Assembly: GCF_900103285.1 (NCBI RefSeq)
Contig: NZ_FNGS01000011.1
Coordinates: 124,001 to 188,000 of the forward strand
DNA length: 64,000 nt
Direction: 5' to 3'
DNA from: Siphonobacter aquaeclarae
GTDB lineage: Bacteria > Bacteroidota > Bacteroidia > Cytophagales > Spirosomataceae
Shown: piece after piece, positions 47,660-57,034 of the stretch
How positions within the stretch are numbered: position 1 is the first letter of the stretch
How the letters are laid out: the number at the start of each line of letters is the position of its first letter
The notes under the pieces: generated by a model
Told to the model about the DNA's origin: nothing
Seen by the model: the letters and a program-made list of their open reading frames with translations, nothing else
Database searches by the model: none
Program-made: the position numbers and the translations under genes

Positions 47660-48014
47660 AGCTCTGTGCTAAAGCACCGTTAATCGTGGTTAGTCAACCA
47701 TGTGACACGCTGACTTTCAATACAAATCGGTTGTGACGGCTTCAAACAAAAAGCCCCCACCGGGGGTCGGACAACAGGCAGAAGACAAATTTACGCTATT
47801 CTCCGCACCCGAAAGCAAAAAAAAAGTTCCCAAACACCGCTTTGGACCCGAAAGCGGCCAAAAGGTTTTGCAGATCGGACAAATTGACAGAAAATCAGAA
47901 GCAGTCGGACAGGTCCGCCTTTTTTGACCAAAAAAACGGTCAGTGAACGGGTTTTCTTTTCTCACCCGCCCTATAACTACTATATTAGTTCGTTTTTTCA
48001 ACGTCATCAGCGCT
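47660..48014. other. Divergent gap upstream of secA with hairpin in the leader
   Basis: This 355-base gap has no credible gene. On the minus strand there is a promoter (47786-47818), followed at about 10 bases by a GC hairpin with T run (about 47749-47770) and then about 90 bases to the secA ATG. A/T-rich sequence near 47970-48000 precedes the plus-strand gene. Confidence 0.6.
47786..47818 (-). promoter_or_regulatory. Promoter for secA (TTG-N22-TAAATTTG)
   Basis: On the minus strand TTG at 47818-47816 and the exact -7 match TAAATTTG at 47793-47786 are 22 bases apart. The inferred start near 47779 gives a leader of about 120 nt that opens with a stable hairpin. Confidence 0.55.
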
Positions 48015-48494
48015 ATGAGCGACCAACAGGAAGAGAATCCCTACTACCGCCGCGTTCACAAGGAGCGGCCCAAGATGAAAATACCCGGCCTGGGCAGTAT
48101 CGGCGCGGGCAAAGGTCAGGGAGATATCTATACCCGCCTGCTTCCCCTTGTCATAATTGCGTTTATCGGTTACGCGGTGTACGATACGTTCGTGTCGATC
48201 AACCGAAAGAAAAAAGACGTAGTAGACGGCGCCGACGCCATCCGGGAAATGACCTGGAATCAGGAAAAGGTATTCAAGAAGTACGCGGATATGGGCAAGA
48301 AGGCCAAACACTTTTACCTCGTGATTGGAAAACCGGGCGCAACCAAAACCATCGACTTCGGCGAGGAAACGTCCGGCTTCTGGGATCAGGTCGACCCGTA
48401 CAACCACCTGACCAAAGCACCGGGCAGTCTGAAAGTGACGGTAGACGCCTACGACAACAGCCGTGACCGTACCATTGAAATGAAATTTGAATAA
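48015..48494 (+). CDS. Single-span membrane protein, 159 residues, unknown function
   Basis: No family was recognised. The protein has a hydrophilic N-terminus (1-45), one hydrophobic span (about 46-62, LLPLVIIAFIGYAVYDTF) and a charged C-terminal domain ending with VTVDAYDNSRDRTIEMKFE. Such proteins are often periplasmic or cytosolic domain anchors. ATG 48015 gives the simplest start; an upstream extension is not supported. A terminator follows. Confidence 0.65.
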   Translation: MSDQQEENPYYRRVHKERPKMKIPGLGSIGAGKGQGDIYTRLLPLVIIAFIGYAVYDTFVSINRKKKDVVDGADAIREMTWNQEKVFKKYADMGKKAKHFYLVIGKPGATKTIDFGEETSGFWDQVDPYNHLTKAPGSLKVTVDAYDNSRDRTIEMKFE

Positions 48495-48523
48495 GGGCTC
48501 ATTTCCTACCTGACCCAAATAGA

Positions 48524-48573: not shown

Positions 48574-49518
48574 TCAGGCTTCCACCAGCATCGCCCCGAA
48601 CGAGTAGCCGCCGCCGAAGGTCGTGACGACAATCTTGTCTCCTTTCTGGAAACGGTACTTGTTTTCATCCAGCCCGATGGCGCAGCCGGCACAGCCGGTA
48701 TTGCCGAGGTACTGAATGTTGGAAAGCAGCTTGTCCATCGGCAGGCCGAGCTCTTCCATGACTTTTTTCGAAATCCGGAAGTTGGCCTGGTGCGGAAGTA
48801 CCCAATCCACGTCGTCGAGGGTCATGCCGTTGCGACCGAGGATCTGCCGGCTCGCACGGGGCATATACACAACAGCGTTGATGAATACGTCGCGACCGTT
48901 GGGCATGACAAACCCGCCGTCTTTCGGCTTCAGGACGACGCCTTCCATAGCCTTACCGGCCGTGGCAGCTCCGCCTGTCAGAATGTCTACGATCTTGAAA
49001 TCTCCTTCGGATACGCGGTCTGCCGAGAGAAACAACGCCGCAGCGCCGTCTCCCCAGAGGTGACCGGCAACTTTGTCTTCGTCATTGCTGTAAGCGGTGT
49101 TATTGTCAGACACCACTACCAGCGCACGCGTCGCTTTTTTCATGCAGAAATATCCCTGCACTACCTCGAGGGCATTCAGCAGGGACGAGCACGCCGAAGA
49201 AACCGACACCACCGGAATATCCGGAATCTGGAGGTCATGCTGGACAGCATGGGCCAGGGAAACGATGGTATCATACGGCGTATAGGTGGCCCCAACAATC
49301 AGGTCAATTTCCTGAACCGGGTAAGGCAGCAACGCCAGTCCCTGGCGTACGGCCTCGATGGCCATGGTATTCGTGTTTTCGTGAGGGGCGGCTTTCCGAC
49401 GTTCTCGGATGCCCGTCCGCTCCACAATCCACTGGTCAGACAATCCATTCAGTCGGGCGAAGTGTTCATTCGTAACAACTTGCTCCGGCAGATAGCTACT
49501 TATCGCGTTGATATACAT
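48574..49518 (-). CDS. 3-oxoacyl-ACP synthase III family protein (FabH-like)
   Basis: This 314-residue thiolase-fold enzyme has the FabH-type triad: Cys in VSSACSSLLNAL, His in VLPHQANFRI and Asn in YLGNTGCAGCAIG. It fits initiation of fatty-acid or related polyketide chains from acyl-CoA plus malonyl-ACP. The usual partner genes are not next to it, so it may be a specialised paralogue. An ATG at 49518 replaces a TTG-led extension. Two copies of a 22-bp palindrome lie about 225-295 bases upstream. Confidence 0.87.
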   Translation of the reverse strand: MYINAISSYLPEQVVTNEHFARLNGLSDQWIVERTGIRERRKAAPHENTNTMAIEAVRQGLALLPYPVQEIDLIVGATYTPYDTIVSLAHAVQHDLQIPDIPVVSVSSACSSLLNALEVVQGYFCMKKATRALVVVSDNNTAYSNDEDKVAGHLWGDGAAALFLSADRVSEGDFKIVDILTGGAATAGKAMEGVVLKPKDGGFVMPNGRDVFINAVVYMPRASRQILGRNGMTLDDVDWVLPHQANFRISKKVMEELGLPMDKLLSNIQYLGNTGCAGCAIGLDENKYRFQKGDKIVVTTFGGGYSFGAMLVEA

Positions 49519-49742: not shown

Positions 49743-49764
49743 AATAGTATGCTTGCATAATATT
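49743..49764. promoter_or_regulatory. Operator-type palindrome, site A
   Basis: AATAGTATG-CTTG-CATAATATT is a 22-base near-perfect inverted repeat (9-bp arms, one mismatch). It matches site C before the acyl-CoA dehydrogenase at 21 of 22 positions in reverse complement, and site B 50 bases away. Confidence 0.7.
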
Positions 49765-49784
49765 AGGTATGCATTCTATCTTTG
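49753..49784 (+). promoter_or_regulatory. Promoter TTG-N21-TATCTTTG reading into the DUF3857 intergenic side
   Basis: TTG at 49753-49755 and TATCTTTG at 49777-49784 (exact TAnnTTTG) have a 21-base spacing. The -33 part lies inside operator site A, and the predicted start near 49791 is just before site B. Downstream there is no gene on this strand for over 100 bases. Confidence 0.55.
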
Positions 49785-49792
49785 AGCATCCC

Positions 49793-49814
49793 AATAGTAT
49801 GTAAGCATACTATT
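49793..49814. promoter_or_regulatory. Operator-type palindrome, site B (perfect arms)
   Basis: AATAGTATG-TAAG-CATACTATT has perfect 9-bp arms around a 4-base centre. It lies exactly 50 bases from site A start to start, about five helical turns, on the same face. Confidence 0.7.
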
Positions 49815-49864
49815 ACCGTATGTCGGAATTATGAATTTCATCGCGTAAAACTAAAAACCAGATC

Positions 49865-49911
49865 ACCCGTCAGGATGAGGCGAAGGCAGCCCCTTCCCTC
49901 ATCCAACGGGT
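49865..49911. terminator. Bidirectional hairpin at the end of the DUF3857 gene
   Basis: The stem pairs acccgt and ggatgagg with cctcatcc and acggg(t), with a 16-base loop and a small bulge. A T run follows on the plus strand, and a T run lies a few bases after it on the minus strand. The right arm reaches the DUF3857 stop. Confidence 0.6.
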
Positions 49912-51806
49912 CATTTTTCTTTCCAGACAGCCTGTACGCGATCGGCTTTTGCTACTTTTTTCCAGAAATCAATCCATGCTGCATAATCGGACGCGGGCCT
50001 TCGGACCGGCAGCACCTGCAACGTGCGGATATAGGTAAGTCCCTCCGGCCCTGCCATTGTTTTTGCGCGGTACGTCCCGAACTGGGTTTTGATTTCCACC
50101 GCCTCCGGAAGCCCCTCCAGCTGGTATCCTTCCGGTACGTGGCAGGTAACGGTATCCGCGTCCGTGAATCCCCGCTTCCAGATAAGGTCGTGTACGCGCG
50201 GTACCGTCGCATCCGGAACCGGCATCTTCCGGGAAAACTGAGCCAGCGGAACAAACAGGCGGTGATCGGTCAGCGTTCCTGCCTGCCGCATATCCAGGGT
50301 CAGTTCTTCCGTCATAACCGGACCGGCCGGCAGCGATGCATCTGACAGCTGAAAACGAACCAGGTCGAACGAAGCCAGGTGAATCTGTTGCAGCATCCAT
50401 TTCCGCAGATCCTCTCCGGACGTAGTCTCCTTCACCTCCCGCAGGGTTTCCTGCTGAATACCGGTGTAGCGCGTTGCCATGTCCACCCGGGCGCTGCCCT
50501 TTGCATCCAGGCGTACGTTCACACGCCGGAATACGCCGTTTTGTTGCTCCTGATAGTCGGGCGTCCGGACCAGTTTACCCCCCGCCGGGGTTTCCAGCAA
50601 GGCATACCTTCCGCCGGTGAAACTGCCCATGTACCCCGGCTGGCCGTACTGGTCGGTACACTCCAGCCATACGGTATCCTTTTCCAGCGGCACACAAAGT
50701 ACCTCGTGGTTGAATACCACCGACGGAAAGTCCGGCAAAATATCCGGCCGGCTTTTCCCCGCTGTAATGGACGCCGTAAACGATTGAATACCAGCCACTT
50801 TCAACATTCCTTTCAGGTAGTTGGAAAGCGCCTTGCAATCGCCGTACCCCTTTTCCGCAACGGTGGACGCGGGAAACGTCTGCCAGCCGCCGATTCCCAC
50901 CTGAATACTGACATAACGGGTAGACTGCTGCAGGTGCCGGTATAGTCTGGCAATTTTGACGCGGGTATCTTTTTCATCCCTGACCAATTGCAGAACGGCT
51001 TGTTTCGTCGTTTCGGGCAATTCATCGCGTCCGGCATTCAGGTCATAAAAAAACTGACCGATTTCTTTCCAGGAAGCGGCGGAGCCTTTGTATCCCTCCA
51101 TCTGAAAAGCATTCGGAGCCATCAGTACCGCCGGCCCGCAAACGGCATACGGATCCGTATAAGGTTCTTTTTCTCTCGGAGACAGGTTTCGAACCTCCCA
51201 GGTTTGAGTAAGGATGCCGGCTTCCTCCGTCTTCCGAAGCAGCTTCGCTCCGTTCAGCTCCCGGTACCGGACGCCGAGAGACGCGGGCACGCGCACCGTC
51301 AGGGACGACTGCTCCACGGCCGCCTCCTCATCCTGTTGCGGAAACCAGTACGGATAGAAGGCCGTAGACTTCGAAACAAGCTCATAGGCGAACTCTACCG
51401 TAAACGGGTAGACAGCATACCGGAAGGTTGCCTGCCGTACTTTGGAGTCGTCGTATAGCGAGTAGCTCGCGTGGGCGGAAGCATCGACGATATCCGATTT
51501 CTTCAGCCGTTTCTGCTCCTTGCCGGAGGCGTCGAGCAGTCGGCCTTCGAAGGACCGGATCCGGGCGTTTTTGTTGTAAAACACTTCTTTGGAGGCATAA
51601 TCGAGCCCCCGTTCATCAAAAATCGTCACCACCTCCCGGACGCGCTCGACAGCCTCTCCCGCCGCCGTAATTTCAAATTCCTCTTCGCGGAGGCGGATAA
51701 CCGCTCCTGCATCCCGCTTCAGCTCCGGACGGACACTGAAGGCGGGGTATTGCTGAGCCTGCGCCCAAAACGGCAGGCAACCCAGCAGCAACCAGATCAG
51801 ACGCAT
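49911..51806 (-). CDS. Exported DUF3857 / transglutaminase-like protein (intact triad)
   Basis: This 631-residue protein has a signal peptide (1-17), the DUF3857 beta-domain (about 20-220) and a transglutaminase-like papain fold. The catalytic Cys is Cys324 in GYGDCKALSNYL; candidate His and Asp lie in VFNHEVLCV and LECTDQYG. The cluster of two DUF3857 genes with one base between them is common in Bacteroidota envelopes; substrate unknown. The neighbouring paralogue has Ser in place of the catalytic Cys. Confidence 0.84.
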   Translation of the reverse strand: MRLIWLLLGCLPFWAQAQQYPAFSVRPELKRDAGAVIRLREEEFEITAAGEAVERVREVVTIFDERGLDYASKEVFYNKNARIRSFEGRLLDASGKEQKRLKKSDIVDASAHASYSLYDDSKVRQATFRYAVYPFTVEFAYELVSKSTAFYPYWFPQQDEEAAVEQSSLTVRVPASLGVRYRELNGAKLLRKTEEAGILTQTWEVRNLSPREKEPYTDPYAVCGPAVLMAPNAFQMEGYKGSAASWKEIGQFFYDLNAGRDELPETTKQAVLQLVRDEKDTRVKIARLYRHLQQSTRYVSIQVGIGGWQTFPASTVAEKGYGDCKALSNYLKGMLKVAGIQSFTASITAGKSRPDILPDFPSVVFNHEVLCVPLEKDTVWLECTDQYGQPGYMGSFTGGRYALLETPAGGKLVRTPDYQEQQNGVFRRVNVRLDAKGSARVDMATRYTGIQQETLREVKETTSGEDLRKWMLQQIHLASFDLVRFQLSDASLPAGPVMTEELTLDMRQAGTLTDHRLFVPLAQFSRKMPVPDATVPRVHDLIWKRGFTDADTVTCHVPEGYQLEGLPEAVEIKTQFGTYRAKTMAGPEGLTYIRTLQVLPVRRPASDYAAWIDFWKKVAKADRVQAVWKEK

Positions 51807-51807
51807 G

Positions 51808-53745
51808 TTATTTCTTTTTGAGGACGACCTTCTCGGTATGTTTCGCGATAACCATGTCCATCAGCTGTTTGAGGTAAGGGTATTCGTCGGAGGTATAAAC
51901 AGGCTTTTTAAGTTGCAGGCGGCTCACGAAGAGTAACTGCTTGTCTTCCGCGAGCTGCATCTGAAAAGTAAACCGGCCGCCGTCTTCCGGCAGCACGATT
52001 ACCTTCGGCGCCGGAAGCGCCTCGGGAAGATACCCTTCCGGCAGGTTCACGGTAGCCATGACGACCTGCTCGGTCGGATGGCCAAAGTCGACCGGATACA
52101 ACCGCGTAGCATGCTTGAACTGGTTGCGGGAAATCGCCCGGCCGAGGGACGGGTCCAGGTACAGCCTGTCGCCGGTACGGGTGCAGGCGTCCTCGTACGC
52201 GATCTCCGCCGAAAAGACGAAGCTTTTGGCCGGATCCTCGAGGAATTCCGCCTTTGCGTTTGAGACCGACCCTTCGCCCGACTGGCCTAATATCCAGGAA
52301 CGTGCCAGTTTTTCCGTGCTGCTTTTTATTAACTCATGCCGACGGTTAAGCGCTTCATAACCCGACCAGGTATACGCTATTTTACCGGTCAGGCTGGCGT
52401 CGGCTTTGAGGTTGTACTCCAGGGAGATAACCTCCCGGCTCGTTACCGGTGCGAGGTAAATCCAGTCAGCCTTGTCCCTGTCTACAATGCGGCCTACTTT
52501 ATTCAGACAGCGGTACGGCAGCGTGCCTAGCGGAAGATAGGCGTCGGTTGCGTCAAGAAAAACCGGCTTTCCGCCGATGTACGTGACGCCTACCACTTCG
52601 TTGAAATAGCTGAGCATCGGAAATTCGAGGAAGACCATACCGTTGTCACGGGTACTGAGCAGAACCGGAAATACCGGCAGATTCAATTCCCGTACCAGCC
52701 CGATCAGCAGCAGGTTAATTTCGGCCGAGTTACCTGTTTTCTGTTCGAAAATTGTCTTCGGCGTACTTTCAGACCAAAACCGTGATTTACCGTTCCAGGT
52801 CATCAGCTGGCGAATCGTTTTCTGGGCTTCCGCCACCATTCCGAGCGTATCCGGATGCGCCGCGCGAATAGCCTGGGCAAGCTCTTTCAGAAAACTGGTT
52901 TTCCGGAGATACCGGCCTACCTGATCGTCGTTAATGAGGCTTTTGTCAATGTCGGTCCAGCGGTTGGAGTAGCTCTTGACGATCCCATCGAGCGCACTGC
53001 GTTCGAGCTCAAACCGTAACCGGGCAAGGTAGTCTTCCGGGTTGGTAGTATAGGGTTCGGTGCGGATCGCCGGGACGTCTTCGACCACATACTGAAAATT
53101 CATACCATACCGGTCATCGTTGTCTGTCTTGTTGACTTTCAGCGGTCTGGGATTCTGGAAGATCGTACGGTAGTAGAGTTTAGGCGGAAAAAATCCGGCA
53201 CATTCGCTTCGACGAACCGGAATATCGGATTGAAAAAACCAGTCTTTCGGTTGAAAAATAAAGTCCGACGCCAGCTCATACTGATACTCAATAATACATC
53301 CTTCCTGCACGTGGGGAAGGGTAAATTTAGTCAGGTACAGGCGGTCACCTGCTTTCGATTCAAACAGGGCCGATTTCCGGAATTCTTCCGATTGAATGAC
53401 GCCGTTTTCCAGCCAATAGGTCCGCCCTCTTACGTTCACAACAAACTCTTCTGACCGGTTTCCGTTCCGGTATTGGGGGATGGAAATAGTCGCTCGCTCA
53501 TATGCTGATTTCCGGAAGATTTTAATACGCCGGAAGAACTCCTGGCGGATTTTGTAGTATCCACCCTCCGGCTCCGGGAGGTTCAGGTAGGTGTAATCAT
53601 CCAGAATAGCGGCATCCGCCGACGAATCGCCGGGATACACCGTCATCCGGAGATCATCCGCTGTAATCTTGGGAACAGATCGCTTCTGCGCAAAGGCAAT
53701 ACATCCTGAAAAAAGAGACAGGACGAGTACTAAAAAAAGTCTCAT
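51808..53745 (-). CDS. Exported DUF3857 / transglutaminase-fold protein lacking the catalytic Cys
   Basis: This 645-residue protein has a signal peptide (1-19) and the same domain order as its downstream neighbour. The position of the catalytic Cys is Ser340 in KTGNSAEINLLLIGLV, so it is likely a non-catalytic partner. LSTRDNGMVFLEFP and PVFLDATDAYLPLG are typical of this subgroup. It lies one base upstream of the intact paralogue in the same operon, and the two may act together. The start at 53745 (MRLFLVLVLSLF) is fixed by the signal peptide. Confidence 0.83.
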   Translation of the reverse strand: MRLFLVLVLSLFSGCIAFAQKRSVPKITADDLRMTVYPGDSSADAAILDDYTYLNLPEPEGGYYKIRQEFFRRIKIFRKSAYERATISIPQYRNGNRSEEFVVNVRGRTYWLENGVIQSEEFRKSALFESKAGDRLYLTKFTLPHVQEGCIIEYQYELASDFIFQPKDWFFQSDIPVRRSECAGFFPPKLYYRTIFQNPRPLKVNKTDNDDRYGMNFQYVVEDVPAIRTEPYTTNPEDYLARLRFELERSALDGIVKSYSNRWTDIDKSLINDDQVGRYLRKTSFLKELAQAIRAAHPDTLGMVAEAQKTIRQLMTWNGKSRFWSESTPKTIFEQKTGNSAEINLLLIGLVRELNLPVFPVLLSTRDNGMVFLEFPMLSYFNEVVGVTYIGGKPVFLDATDAYLPLGTLPYRCLNKVGRIVDRDKADWIYLAPVTSREVISLEYNLKADASLTGKIAYTWSGYEALNRRHELIKSSTEKLARSWILGQSGEGSVSNAKAEFLEDPAKSFVFSAEIAYEDACTRTGDRLYLDPSLGRAISRNQFKHATRLYPVDFGHPTEQVVMATVNLPEGYLPEALPAPKVIVLPEDGGRFTFQMQLAEDKQLLFVSRLQLKKPVYTSDEYPYLKQLMDMVIAKHTEKVVLKKK

Positions 53746-54043
53746 ACAACTCGGAATACAAATTTCGGACAGCAGGTTAACGGAGGATAAAAAAGGAAAG
53801 CAGCGAAAGAAGCTACCGCAGGTAGTTTAGTGGAAAGGGGACATGTGTTATGGGGTTAAGGATCGTCGGACAAATAAAGAAAGAAGCCGGCTATTCCTGC
53901 ATTTTCCCGTATGGAATATTTTCAAATGAATCCGTTTCATCAATTCGTGATTTTCTGCCGGCTGATCTTAACAATTTGTTGATTCATTGGCCGGAGAAAT
54001 CTCTGCTTTCCCGCGGATTTTTGCCGGTTCAAACCGAACCACC
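53746..54043. other. Divergent gap before the alkaline phosphatase gene
   Basis: About 300 bases with no credible gene. A/T-rich sequence at 53850-53980 is the likely promoter area, but no exact -7 match was seen on either strand. Confidence 0.5.
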
Positions 54044-55105
54044 ATGTTTCGTTCTTTCTTTCTCTTGTTTTCTATGCTGGCGGTAGCTGCCTCGGCACAA
54101 ACCGCCAAACGACCCAAAAACGTCATCCTGCTGATAGGCGACGGAATGGGCGTCAACCATGTGTATGCGGCCCAACTGGCGAACAAAGCGCCGATTCACC
54201 TCAACCGCTTCCCGTACCTGGGGCTGTCGACCACCCACCCTATCCGGGACTTCGTCACCGACTCCGGCGCCGGCGGCACTGCGCTCGCCATCGGGGTGAA
54301 GACGAAAAACGGCGCTGTCGGAGTCGATTCTTCCGGTACCCCCCACCCGTCCCTGGCCGAGCTCGCCAAACAACACAAACTTGCGACGGGTATCGTCACC
54401 ACGTGCGACATCACCGATGCTACTCCGGCCGATTTCTACGCACACGTCAAATCCCGGAACGAACACGAAGCCATTGCAGGTCAGATGGTTAAGTCCGGAC
54501 TTGACGTCGTCATCGGCGGAGGCATGAAGTACTTTGTTCAACGGAAAGACGGCCAGAATCTCCTCGAAACGTTTCGCAAAAATGGCTATACCGTAGCCGA
54601 TACCTCAGCTGATTTTACAACGGCGAAGGGTGGAAAGCTCGTCGCATTTACGGCTTTTGTCAACCCGAAGAAAGTACTGGAAGGCCGCGGCCCCGAGCTT
54701 CGGCAGGGAGTCGAAAAGGCGCTTACTGTTCTCAACCAGAACAAAAACGGCTTTTTCCTGATGGCAGAAGGCTCGCAGATCGACTGGGGCGGCCATGCCA
54801 ACGACCTGAAGTATATCCTGACCGAGACGCTCGATTTTGACCAGGCAGTAGGTGCAGCGCTTGACTTCGCTGAGAAAGACGGTGAAACCCTCGTCATTGT
54901 GACCGCCGACCACGAAACAGGCGGACTTTCATTGACCAACGGCGACTGGCGCAACGGCGTCGTAGAAGGCAAATTCACGTGGACGAACCATACCGCCAAC
55001 CCGGTACCGGTATTTGCCTTTGGTCCCGGCGCGGAATTGTTCCGGGGTATCTTCCCGAATACGGATGTTCACCAGAAAATCCGTACCGCATGGTGGGGTA
55101 AATAA
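54044..55105 (+). CDS. Exported alkaline phosphatase
   Basis: This 353-residue metalloenzyme hydrolyses phosphomonoesters outside the cytoplasm. After a signal peptide (1-19) it shows VILLIGDGMGVNH (metal Asp), TDSGAGGTALAIG (nucleophile Ser in the DSxAG loop), SQIDWGGHAND and VTADHETGGL (metal His/Asp). It is shorter than E. coli PhoA and lacks that enzyme's disulphide-rich crown insert. ATG 54044 gives the signal peptide; the longer frame is not supported. Confidence 0.92.
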   Translation: MFRSFFLLFSMLAVAASAQTAKRPKNVILLIGDGMGVNHVYAAQLANKAPIHLNRFPYLGLSTTHPIRDFVTDSGAGGTALAIGVKTKNGAVGVDSSGTPHPSLAELAKQHKLATGIVTTCDITDATPADFYAHVKSRNEHEAIAGQMVKSGLDVVIGGGMKYFVQRKDGQNLLETFRKNGYTVADTSADFTTAKGGKLVAFTAFVNPKKVLEGRGPELRQGVEKALTVLNQNKNGFFLMAEGSQIDWGGHANDLKYILTETLDFDQAVGAALDFAEKDGETLVIVTADHETGGLSLTNGDWRNGVVEGKFTWTNHTANPVPVFAFGPGAELFRGIFPNTDVHQKIRTAWWGK

Positions 55106-55120
55106 TCCCTATCGGATACA

Positions 55121-55155
55121 AAAAAAGTCCTCCGGATGCACCGGAGGACTTTTTT
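55121..55155. terminator. Bidirectional terminator between alkaline phosphatase and acyl-CoA dehydrogenase
   Basis: A perfect 15-bp stem (aaaaaagtcctccgg/ccggaggactttttt) with a 5-base loop lies between convergent genes. Confidence 0.92.
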
Positions 55156-55167
55156 ATAGTATCAGGA

Positions 55168-56967
55168 TCAGAAAGGATATCCTCCCGCTTCCAGTGCCGC
55201 GTGAGCAATCCTGCGCCGGGCTTCCTTCAGGTTATACGGATCGATCTTCGTAAACCGCTTCAAGCCGAGCAGCATTACATTTTGCTCGTCTCCTTCTGCA
55301 AAGCTCGTAATCGCCTGACGACCAGCCCAGGCTACTTTTTCGACCGCTTCGTGGAGGTATACCAGCGCAGCTTCCTTCTGCACGGCTACGGCATTTTCGC
55401 CCTTGATACCGATCAGTTTTTCAACCCGCAACAGCGCCGATTCCGCGGCATATACTTCGATCAGCATATCGGCCAGGTTCATGATGATTTCCTGTTCCTT
55501 GTCAAACGCCATCATGAATTTCTGCACGGCTGCTCCGGCTGTCATCAATACTGCCTTTTTCAGGTTTTTGATGACTTTCTTTTCCTTGATAAACAGGCCT
55601 TCCTCTTCTTCTGCACCGAAATCCGGGATACTCATGATTTCCTTCGAAACAGCCATAGCGGGTCCGAGGATATCGAGCTGCCCCTTCATGGCCCGCTTCA
55701 GAATCATATCCACCGTCAGCAGGCGGTTGATTTCGTTCGTGCCTTCAAAAATCCGGTTGATGCGGCTGTCACGGTACGCCCGCTCCATCGGCGCGTCGGC
55801 GGAGTAGCCCATCCCACCGTAGATCTGTACGCCTTCGTCCACGACATAATCCAGAACTTCCGATCCGTGTACCTTGAGGATAGCGCATTCGATGGCGAAT
55901 TGCTCTACCCCCTTGAGCTTGGCTTCAGATTCGGGCATGCCTTCGGCGATGAGGGCCTGAATGGCGTCGTCGATGTTTTGACCGGCCCGATAGGTAGCTG
56001 ATTCAGAAGCGAATAGCTTCACAGCCATCTCCGCAATCTTATGCTGAATCGCGCCGAAGCTGGCGATCGCCGTTCCGAACTGCTTGCGTTCCTTCGCATA
56101 TTGAATGGCCTGGGCTGCAACGGCTTTAGCGCCACCGATACAGGCCGCCGACAGCTTGATACGCCCGATATTCAGGATATTGACAGCAATTTTGAAGCCG
56201 CCTTCCCGCTGGTACAGCAGGTTTTCAACCGGTACCTGGCAATCGTTGAAGAAAATCTGACGGGTATCAGACGATTTGATGCCCAGCTTGTGCTCGGGCT
56301 CGTTCATGGTGATACCGCCGAAGTCACGCTCGACGATAAACGCCGTCAGGTTTTTGTCGTTATCAATTTTTGCAAAAACGATGTAGATATCGGCAAAACC
56401 GCCGTTGGTAATCCACATCTTCTGCCCGTTGAGGACGTAATGCTTGCCATCGGCCGACAACACCGCCTTCGTCTTGCCCGAATTGGCATCCGAGCCGCTG
56501 TCGGGTTCGGTGAGGCAATATGCCGCTTTCCACTCGCCGGTGGCCAGTTTGGGCAGGTATTTGGCCTTCTGCTCTTCGTTTCCGTAGTAGAGAATCGGCA
56601 GGGTGCCGATTCCGGTGTGCGCCGACAGCGCGACGGCAAAGCCTCCGGACGCGCCGATTTTGTCGGTCACGAGCATGGACGTATTGAAATTCATCCCGAA
56701 ACCGCCGTACTCTTCCGGAATCGACGTCGCCAGCAGGCCGAGCTCGCCGGCTTTGTTGAGTAATCCGACGATGGGTTCGTAGCTTTTGGCTTCGTCCAGT
56801 TCTTTCATCCGCGGGAGTACCTCGCGATTCAGAAATTCTTCGCAGGTTGCGGCAACCATCCGTTGCTCTTCTCCGAATTCTTCCGGAATGAACACCGAAT
56901 CCGCCGGAATGTCCTGAATGAGAAACTCTCCTCCTTTTATAGAAGCTCCTGGCTTGGTAGCGATCAT
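55168..56967 (-). CDS. Acyl-CoA dehydrogenase (long/very-long-chain type with C-terminal extension)
   Basis: This 599-residue FAD enzyme has the dehydrogenase core (about 30-430) with LTEPDSGSDA, WITNGGFADIYIVFAK and the catalytic region IFEGTNEINRLL, plus a C-terminal domain of about 160 residues like VLCAD/FadE types. It starts beta-oxidation of fatty acyl-CoA. A 22-bp palindrome (57013-57034) 46 bases upstream suggests control by the same regulator as the FabH-like region. Confidence 0.93.
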   Translation of the reverse strand: MIATKPGASIKGGEFLIQDIPADSVFIPEEFGEEQRMVAATCEEFLNREVLPRMKELDEAKSYEPIVGLLNKAGELGLLATSIPEEYGGFGMNFNTSMLVTDKIGASGGFAVALSAHTGIGTLPILYYGNEEQKAKYLPKLATGEWKAAYCLTEPDSGSDANSGKTKAVLSADGKHYVLNGQKMWITNGGFADIYIVFAKIDNDKNLTAFIVERDFGGITMNEPEHKLGIKSSDTRQIFFNDCQVPVENLLYQREGGFKIAVNILNIGRIKLSAACIGGAKAVAAQAIQYAKERKQFGTAIASFGAIQHKIAEMAVKLFASESATYRAGQNIDDAIQALIAEGMPESEAKLKGVEQFAIECAILKVHGSEVLDYVVDEGVQIYGGMGYSADAPMERAYRDSRINRIFEGTNEINRLLTVDMILKRAMKGQLDILGPAMAVSKEIMSIPDFGAEEEEGLFIKEKKVIKNLKKAVLMTAGAAVQKFMMAFDKEQEIIMNLADMLIEVYAAESALLRVEKLIGIKGENAVAVQKEAALVYLHEAVEKVAWAGRQAITSFAEGDEQNVMLLGLKRFTKIDPYNLKEARRRIAHAALEAGGYPF

Positions 56968-57012
56968 AGTCTGTTTGATTTAGATAGATATCCGAAAGTT
57001 CGACAAAGAAGT

Positions 57013-57034
57013 ATTATTATGCAAGCATACTATT
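57013..57034. promoter_or_regulatory. Operator-type palindrome, site C (acyl-CoA dehydrogenase)
   Basis: ATTATTATG-CAAG-CATACTATT, read on the minus strand, is AATAGTATG-CTTG-CATAATAAT: 21 of 22 bases identical to site A. It lies 46 bases before the ATG of the acyl-CoA dehydrogenase. Confidence 0.72.

Follow-up and report, generated by a model that had tools for sequence, protein, structure and literature searches.

Palindromes in Siphonobacter aquaeclarae as probable operators of a MarR-family beta-oxidation regulon

Regulators of fatty-acid breakdown have been described for Proteobacteria, in which PsrA and FadP (TetR) and FadR (GntR) govern fatty-acid degradation regulons (PMC5343134). A second point of comparison is FabT, a protein of the MarR family that represses fatty-acid synthesis in streptococci, lactococci and enterococci and whose binding is enhanced by acyl-ACP (PMC9083066), and a third is offered by the KASIII enzymes PA3286 and RSp0194 (FabW), through which acyl-CoA arising from beta-oxidation enters synthesis (PMC4549310). 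For Bacteroidota, among the titles listed by our searches of the open-access literature, we recognised no regulator of fatty-acid breakdown and no report of a MarR fatty-acid degradation regulon. Here we describe a set of palindromes in Siphonobacter aquaeclarae which, with a probability that we put at about 87%, are the operators of one MarR-family regulator controlling beta-oxidation genes as a regulon, both in this genome and in the family to which it belongs. Such a regulon would resemble those of PsrA, FadP and FadR in placing several beta-oxidation operons under one local regulator, with lineage-specific expansions, and would differ from them in the family of the regulator (MarR) and in the phylum. 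With FabT it would share, as judged here from sequence, a regulator of the MarR family, palindromic operators that include one at the regulator's own promoter, and a role in lipid metabolism; FabT, however, controls synthesis genes, whereas the regulon described here comprises mainly degradation genes.

Siphonobacter is placed by NCBI in Cytophagales (Bacteroidota). The window analysed is a 64-kb stretch (C16:124001-188000) of the 6.19-Mb genome, and it holds three palindromes annotated, without strand, as predicted MarR sites: A (49743-49764; AATAGTATGCTTGCATAATATT), B (49793-49814; AATAGTATGTAAGCATACTATT) and C (57013-57034; AATAGTATGCTTGCATAATAAT on the minus strand). A sequence-only reading had placed them at these positions, and the window sequence agrees, as it does with the near-identity of A and C (one differing base in 22) and the spacing of A and B (50 bp, start to start); read on the minus strand, C departs at a single position from the formula proposed in that reading. 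With up to three mismatches allowed, this earlier pattern gives seven strand-matches in the window, where shuffled sequence leads one to expect 0.04; one of these matches, with 3 mismatches, falls between A and B. A refined pattern, AWTAKTATGCNNGCATAMTAWT, finds exactly A (0 mismatches), B (1 mismatch) and C, where 100 shuffles average 0.00; this fit is partly by construction, because the pattern was derived from the same genome's own matches to the earlier one. Downstream of site C, at a distance of 45 bp, is the ATG of a gene for a FadE-like acyl-CoA dehydrogenase (55168-56967, minus strand; 599 aa), a predicted regulon member identified by Pfam and by NCBIfam NF058590 (796 bits, cut-off 600). 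Sites A and B lie between the 3' end of a DUF3857 gene and a gene for a FabH-like (beta-ketoacyl-ACP synthase III-like) protein of 314 aa (48574-49518, minus strand), 224 and 274 bp, respectively, upstream of its ATG, which ends at 49518. The sites had been tied to the FabH-like/DUF3857 region and the acyl-CoA dehydrogenase; their upstream placement holds for the FabH-like and dehydrogenase genes, whereas none of the three sites has the DUF3857 gene downstream of it, and the orientation of that gene rules it out as a target.

Over the 6.19-Mb genome the refined pattern occurs at nine places, against none for a reversed control, and the clustering at beta-oxidation and other lipid genes that had been suggested as a check is found there: six places precede beta-oxidation operons, two precede the FabH-like gene and one belongs to a TonB/DUF3089 pair. 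TATG and CATA are invariant in all nine. Besides A, B and C, the sites precede etfB-etfA (C7:226017), an EtfD-like Fe-S oxidoreductase gene followed by one for a CCG protein, with topoisomerase IB divergent (C18:87296), a MarR-DUF2721-3HCDH/ECH (fadB) operon (C7:802395), a thiolase-ECH/3HCDH pair (thiolase-fadJ; C19:33090) and a second acyl-CoA dehydrogenase gene (C18:261232), and the last, at C19:151540 (L031:9041-9062), lies between genes for a TonB receptor and a DUF3089 protein. The thiolase, MarR, second acyl-CoA dehydrogenase and TonB sites are the weaker ones (2-3 mismatches). With up to three mismatches the earlier pattern gives 11 places genome-wide, again against none for the reversed control; two of these fall within ORFs, and a third overlaps the stretch from A to B. 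A looser 16-bp core, allowed three mismatches, occurs at 189 places against 194 in the control, and this want of excess indicates that the outer bases matter. Matches to the earlier pattern at C8:270097 and C18:684235, and to the 16-bp core at C17:187784 and at two places on C14, overlap predicted ORFs, are absent from the refined set and were treated as chance. The EtfD-like oxidoreductase resembles PDB 9ojn ("iron-sulfur-binding reductase", E 3.7e-44), which we infer to be EtfD; it can be likened to the EtfD of mycobacteria (PMC13083937, available in part), from which it differs in that two genes (440 and 261 aa) stand here behind a MarR-type site.

A search for a regulator gene with the motif nearby led to the MarR gene that heads the fadB operon, outside the window (G000:C7:801895-802338; 147 aa), whose own site lies 56 bp upstream of its start. 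This candidate regulator contains the MarR winged-helix domain (PF01047, E 8.9e-12, 45.2 bits against a cut-off of 24.6), and its Pfam matches are to MarR and other winged-helix models, with no sign of GntR or TetR membership; it falls below the NCBIfam FabT model (28.2 bits, cut-off 200) and is 88% identical to its counterpart in Siphonobacter sp. BAB-5405. The sequence-only reading had expected a TetR or MarR protein: MarR fits, and no TetR was found at any site. Its further proposal, that one fatty-acid regulator serves the sites, gains support from the genomic clustering and from a MarR gene with a site of its own, although the FabH-like gene can be counted, at best, as a member specific to the genus. 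Synthesis targets of the FabT type were not found, the sites lying mainly at degradation genes and the FabH-like gene being the single exception seen in this genome.

At the thresholds used, MarR gives one match per genome, in 32 of 39 relatives and in 54 of 296 sampled genomes of the phylum, and a regulator with a clear operator in so many genomes amounts to a directly testable switch. Of 80 named Cytophagales loci, 73 carry a site (up to three mismatches) within the 300 bp that precede the MarR homologue. Among the seven exceptions, three Runella loci (L105, L127 and L131) keep a TATGC-N2-ACATA palindrome and L074 has a 4-mismatch site, while upstream of MarR in L070, L101 and L145 nothing close to the motif was found. 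The arms of the palindrome vary symmetrically, as in the variant AATAGGATGCTTGCATCCTATT, which recurs among the 80 loci. By hand count, 24 of 30 relatives' MarR loci carry a site at four mismatches or fewer, as do, at three or fewer, 26 of 29 loci in a wider set through the class, scanned from 29 of the 54 matching genomes; the three sets of loci share some genomes. In the wider set fadB is found behind MarR in 27 of 28 loci, and among the 80 named loci the gene behind MarR is fadB in 29 and fadE in 18, with neither within 2.2 kb in 33, some of which end earlier. In three Arcicella-type loci (L071, L075 and L076) the main MarR site is closely followed, on its downstream side, by a further palindrome, TTATGCAAAGCATAA, whose spacer is 3 bp long.

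Autoregulation is one reading of a site before a regulator gene, but control by another protein fits equally well, and it is conceivable that the motif is owned by some other regulator which also controls the MarR gene, MarR itself having a different target. That the site stays before MarR while the next gene changes (from fadB to fadE, as above) argues against this, as does the distribution of the motif: at two mismatches or fewer the 39 relatives hold 168 sites against six in the control, of which 166 are in the 32 MarR-positive genomes and two in the seven MarR-negative ones, and order-level relatives taken alone have 13 sites in eight genomes with MarR and one in six without. Such co-occurrence could, on the other hand, merely reflect that MarR and motif both follow the family tree. 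Four MarR-positive genomes (G003, G005, G035 and G038) have no site at two mismatches or fewer genome-wide, and the retention of MarR without sites in G003 and G005 would suit another owner of the motif, except that in these same two genomes etfB, fadE and etfD were not detected either.

The same question can be asked of the pathway genes, where we considered the best 30 loci per protein (from 33 matching genomes for etfB, 35 for fadE and 32 for etfD). A site precedes etfB in 19 of 27 MarR-positive and 0 of 3 MarR-negative genomes, fadE in 21 of 27 and 0 of 3, and etfD in 14 of 26 and 0 of 4, the MarR-negative genomes giving 0 of 10 checks in four genomes, all of them order-level relatives. 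Within these loci the family members with MarR have the site at etfB in 18 of 20, at fadE in 20 of 22 and at etfD in 14 of 20, as against 1 of 7, 1 of 5 and 0 of 6 in the order-level relatives with MarR. Since the MarR-negative genomes all belong to the order-level group, in which MarR-positive genomes mostly go without sites too, the contrast between genomes with and without MarR is confounded by kinship, which lowers our confidence in MarR as the owner of the motif and raises it for another regulator; we nevertheless hold the latter to be very improbable and retain the MarR protein as the probable regulator. The motif, its genomic distribution and its placement before MarR and the pathway genes across the family are read directly from the genomes, and at the family level the sites precede several unlinked beta-oxidation operons, as in regulons of the FadR, PsrA and FadP type. 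As the order-level relatives with MarR are mostly without these sites, the genomes establish the broad regulon within the family alone, and beyond it they demonstrate mainly the MarR-fadB site.

The apparent absence of pathway genes in parts of the genus bears on the same relationship. No match to etfB, fadE or etfD was found in Siphonobacter G002, G003 and G005 (at E 1e-60, 1e-180 and 1e-60, respectively), although this absence is less sure in G002, which is 92% complete, and the motif counts of these three genomes at three mismatches (2, 2 and 2, against 3, 3 and 2 in the control) are at background level. In G001 and G004, where all three genes are present, the corresponding counts are 9 and 9 against 3 and 4. 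G003 still has a fadB-like gene (58%) behind MarR, without a site (locus L070), so that the pathway there is not wholly gone.

In eight of the 39 relatives, chosen because their sites had been listed, 46 site regions were inspected, the sites at their MarR genes being counted separately. A clear beta-oxidation gene adjoins 38 of them (ETF, EtfD-like, acyl-CoA dehydrogenase, enoyl-CoA hydratase, thiolase, fadB or AMP-binding acyl-CoA ligase genes, the ORF start being about 300-330 bp from the site in three), and a further region adjoins a probable acyl-CoA dehydrogenase whose Pfam match is below its cut-off. The others comprise an SDR, a fatty-acid hydroxylase protein, a TonB receptor, MnmE with an MPAB oxygenase, and three sites inside ORFs. 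Six of the 46 regions, namely three weak-looking sites and three of G018, account for the three in ORFs, one enoyl-CoA hydratase, the probable acyl-CoA dehydrogenase and the TonB receptor. The motif offers a route to missing lipid genes, such as those for the TonB receptor, DUF3089, SDR and fatty-acid hydroxylase proteins. A TonB receptor stands behind a site in locus L385 as well as at the TonB/DUF3089 site of S. aquaeclarae, which hints at lipid uptake. Paired sites 39-52 bp apart (up to four mismatches), an arrangement like that of A and B, precede fadE in 16 of 27 MarR-positive relatives (best 30 of 35 loci), and a 0-mismatch site precedes the orthologue of the gene behind C in two sister genomes; in S. 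aquaeclarae itself nothing close to the pattern was found as a second site within 333 bp upstream of fadE.

The arrangement suggests a mechanism in which MarR would bind the motif as a dimer, with one winged helix per TATGC half-site, paired sites presumably accommodating two dimers on one face of the DNA. Bound MarR would cover the promoter and repress it, until an acyl-CoA or other lipid signal released it, whereupon the acyl-CoA dehydrogenases, ETF, the EtfD-like link from ETF to quinone, the hydratase/dehydrogenase and the thiolase would rise together; through its own site MarR would also regulate itself, and in S. aquaeclarae, and perhaps two sister species, it may reach the FabH-like gene through A and B. 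Acyl-CoA-responsive regulators exist, and it is by analogy with these that we guess acyl-CoA to be the ligand; FabT, which binds better with acyl-ACP and controls synthesis, indicates that ligand and target may differ for the present MarR. Repression by occlusion appears the most likely mode of action. In a count that left out four loci near contig ends, the element TAnnTTTG, which we take to be the Bacteroidetes -7 motif, begins at a distance of 17-18 nt from the centre of the palindrome in 16 of 26 loci of the wider set, which fits occlusion, yet at the Cytophagales sites it has no fixed offset, occurring within 70 nt, at scattered positions, in 25 of 73 MarR, 3 of 19 etfB and 1 of 21 fadE cases. 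This scatter would be easier to accommodate if MarR were an activator or dual regulator bound upstream of the promoter rather than over it, as would the site-to-gene distances of about 30 to 290 bp (best 30 loci per protein) and the remoteness of A and B, which are separated from the ATG of the FabH-like gene by 224-274 bp, a stretch that includes a proximal segment shared by six Siphonobacter genomes as a conserved element. In view of the wider-set spacing we think an activating or dual role unlikely and prefer occlusion.

The FabH-like gene is one of three KASIII matches in the genome, and its product has the Cys-His-Asn triad of the KASIII fold (Cys110, His243 and Asn273 in an alignment with E. 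coli FabH 1hn9, read by eye). For the 21 MarR-positive genomes among the best 30 loci, its orthologue carries a site in one at two mismatches or fewer and in three at four or fewer, the remaining 18 having none even at four mismatches. As a conserved regulon member it was rejected outside Siphonobacter, where the orthologues are without the site, and it would be a genus-level addition at most. The rarity of the site makes it quite possible, though we lean the other way, that A and B have no effect on this gene, being either relics or sites that act on some short transcript missing from the annotation, the more so as its orthologue persists at 90% identity in the three genomes without detected etfB, fadE and etfD. 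Two strong paired sites are, however, unlikely as relics, and no ORF of 80 aa or more, apart from the FabH-like one, has a likely start facing A or B; moreover, in the two sisters with the pathway genes, G001 and G004, the aligned position upstream of the FabH-like orthologue is occupied by GTATG-N4-CATAC, a site with 4 mismatches, while in G002, G003 and G005 no site was found there. We therefore keep the FabH-like gene as a proposed, genus-specific target of A and B.

If so, a KASIII paralogue would be wired to a beta-oxidation regulator, which invites likening to PA3286 and RSp0194, with no orthology implied, and a PA3286-like return of acyl-CoA into synthesis is possible by analogy, giving a possible link between fatty-acid breakdown and synthesis. 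It differs from those enzymes in that its orthologue persists where etfB, fadE and etfD were not detected, so that its usual role does not need them, which argues against acyl-CoA return as its only role. On a more ambitious reading the MarR-operator pair would be a general beta-oxidation switch of much of the class Bacteroidia, a non-orthologous counterpart of FadR and PsrA that in the family includes the ETF-EtfD respiratory link and in Siphonobacter has captured a third KASIII, returning acyl-CoA from breakdown to synthesis under the same control; this we regard as rather doubtful, its odds being lowered by the general lack of sites at etfB, fadE and etfD outside the family.

Two further features of the FabH-like locus may be recorded. 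Just upstream of the gene, the segment 49519-49670 of the window shows strong conservation across six Siphonobacter genomes; within it are repeats of the TTTGCATAGTGCAA type, perhaps the site of another regulator. Downstream of the gene, positions 47985-48518 encode a 177-aa protein without a Pfam match, a counterpart of which, 28-34% identical, is found beside the FabH-like orthologue in the five other Siphonobacter genomes.
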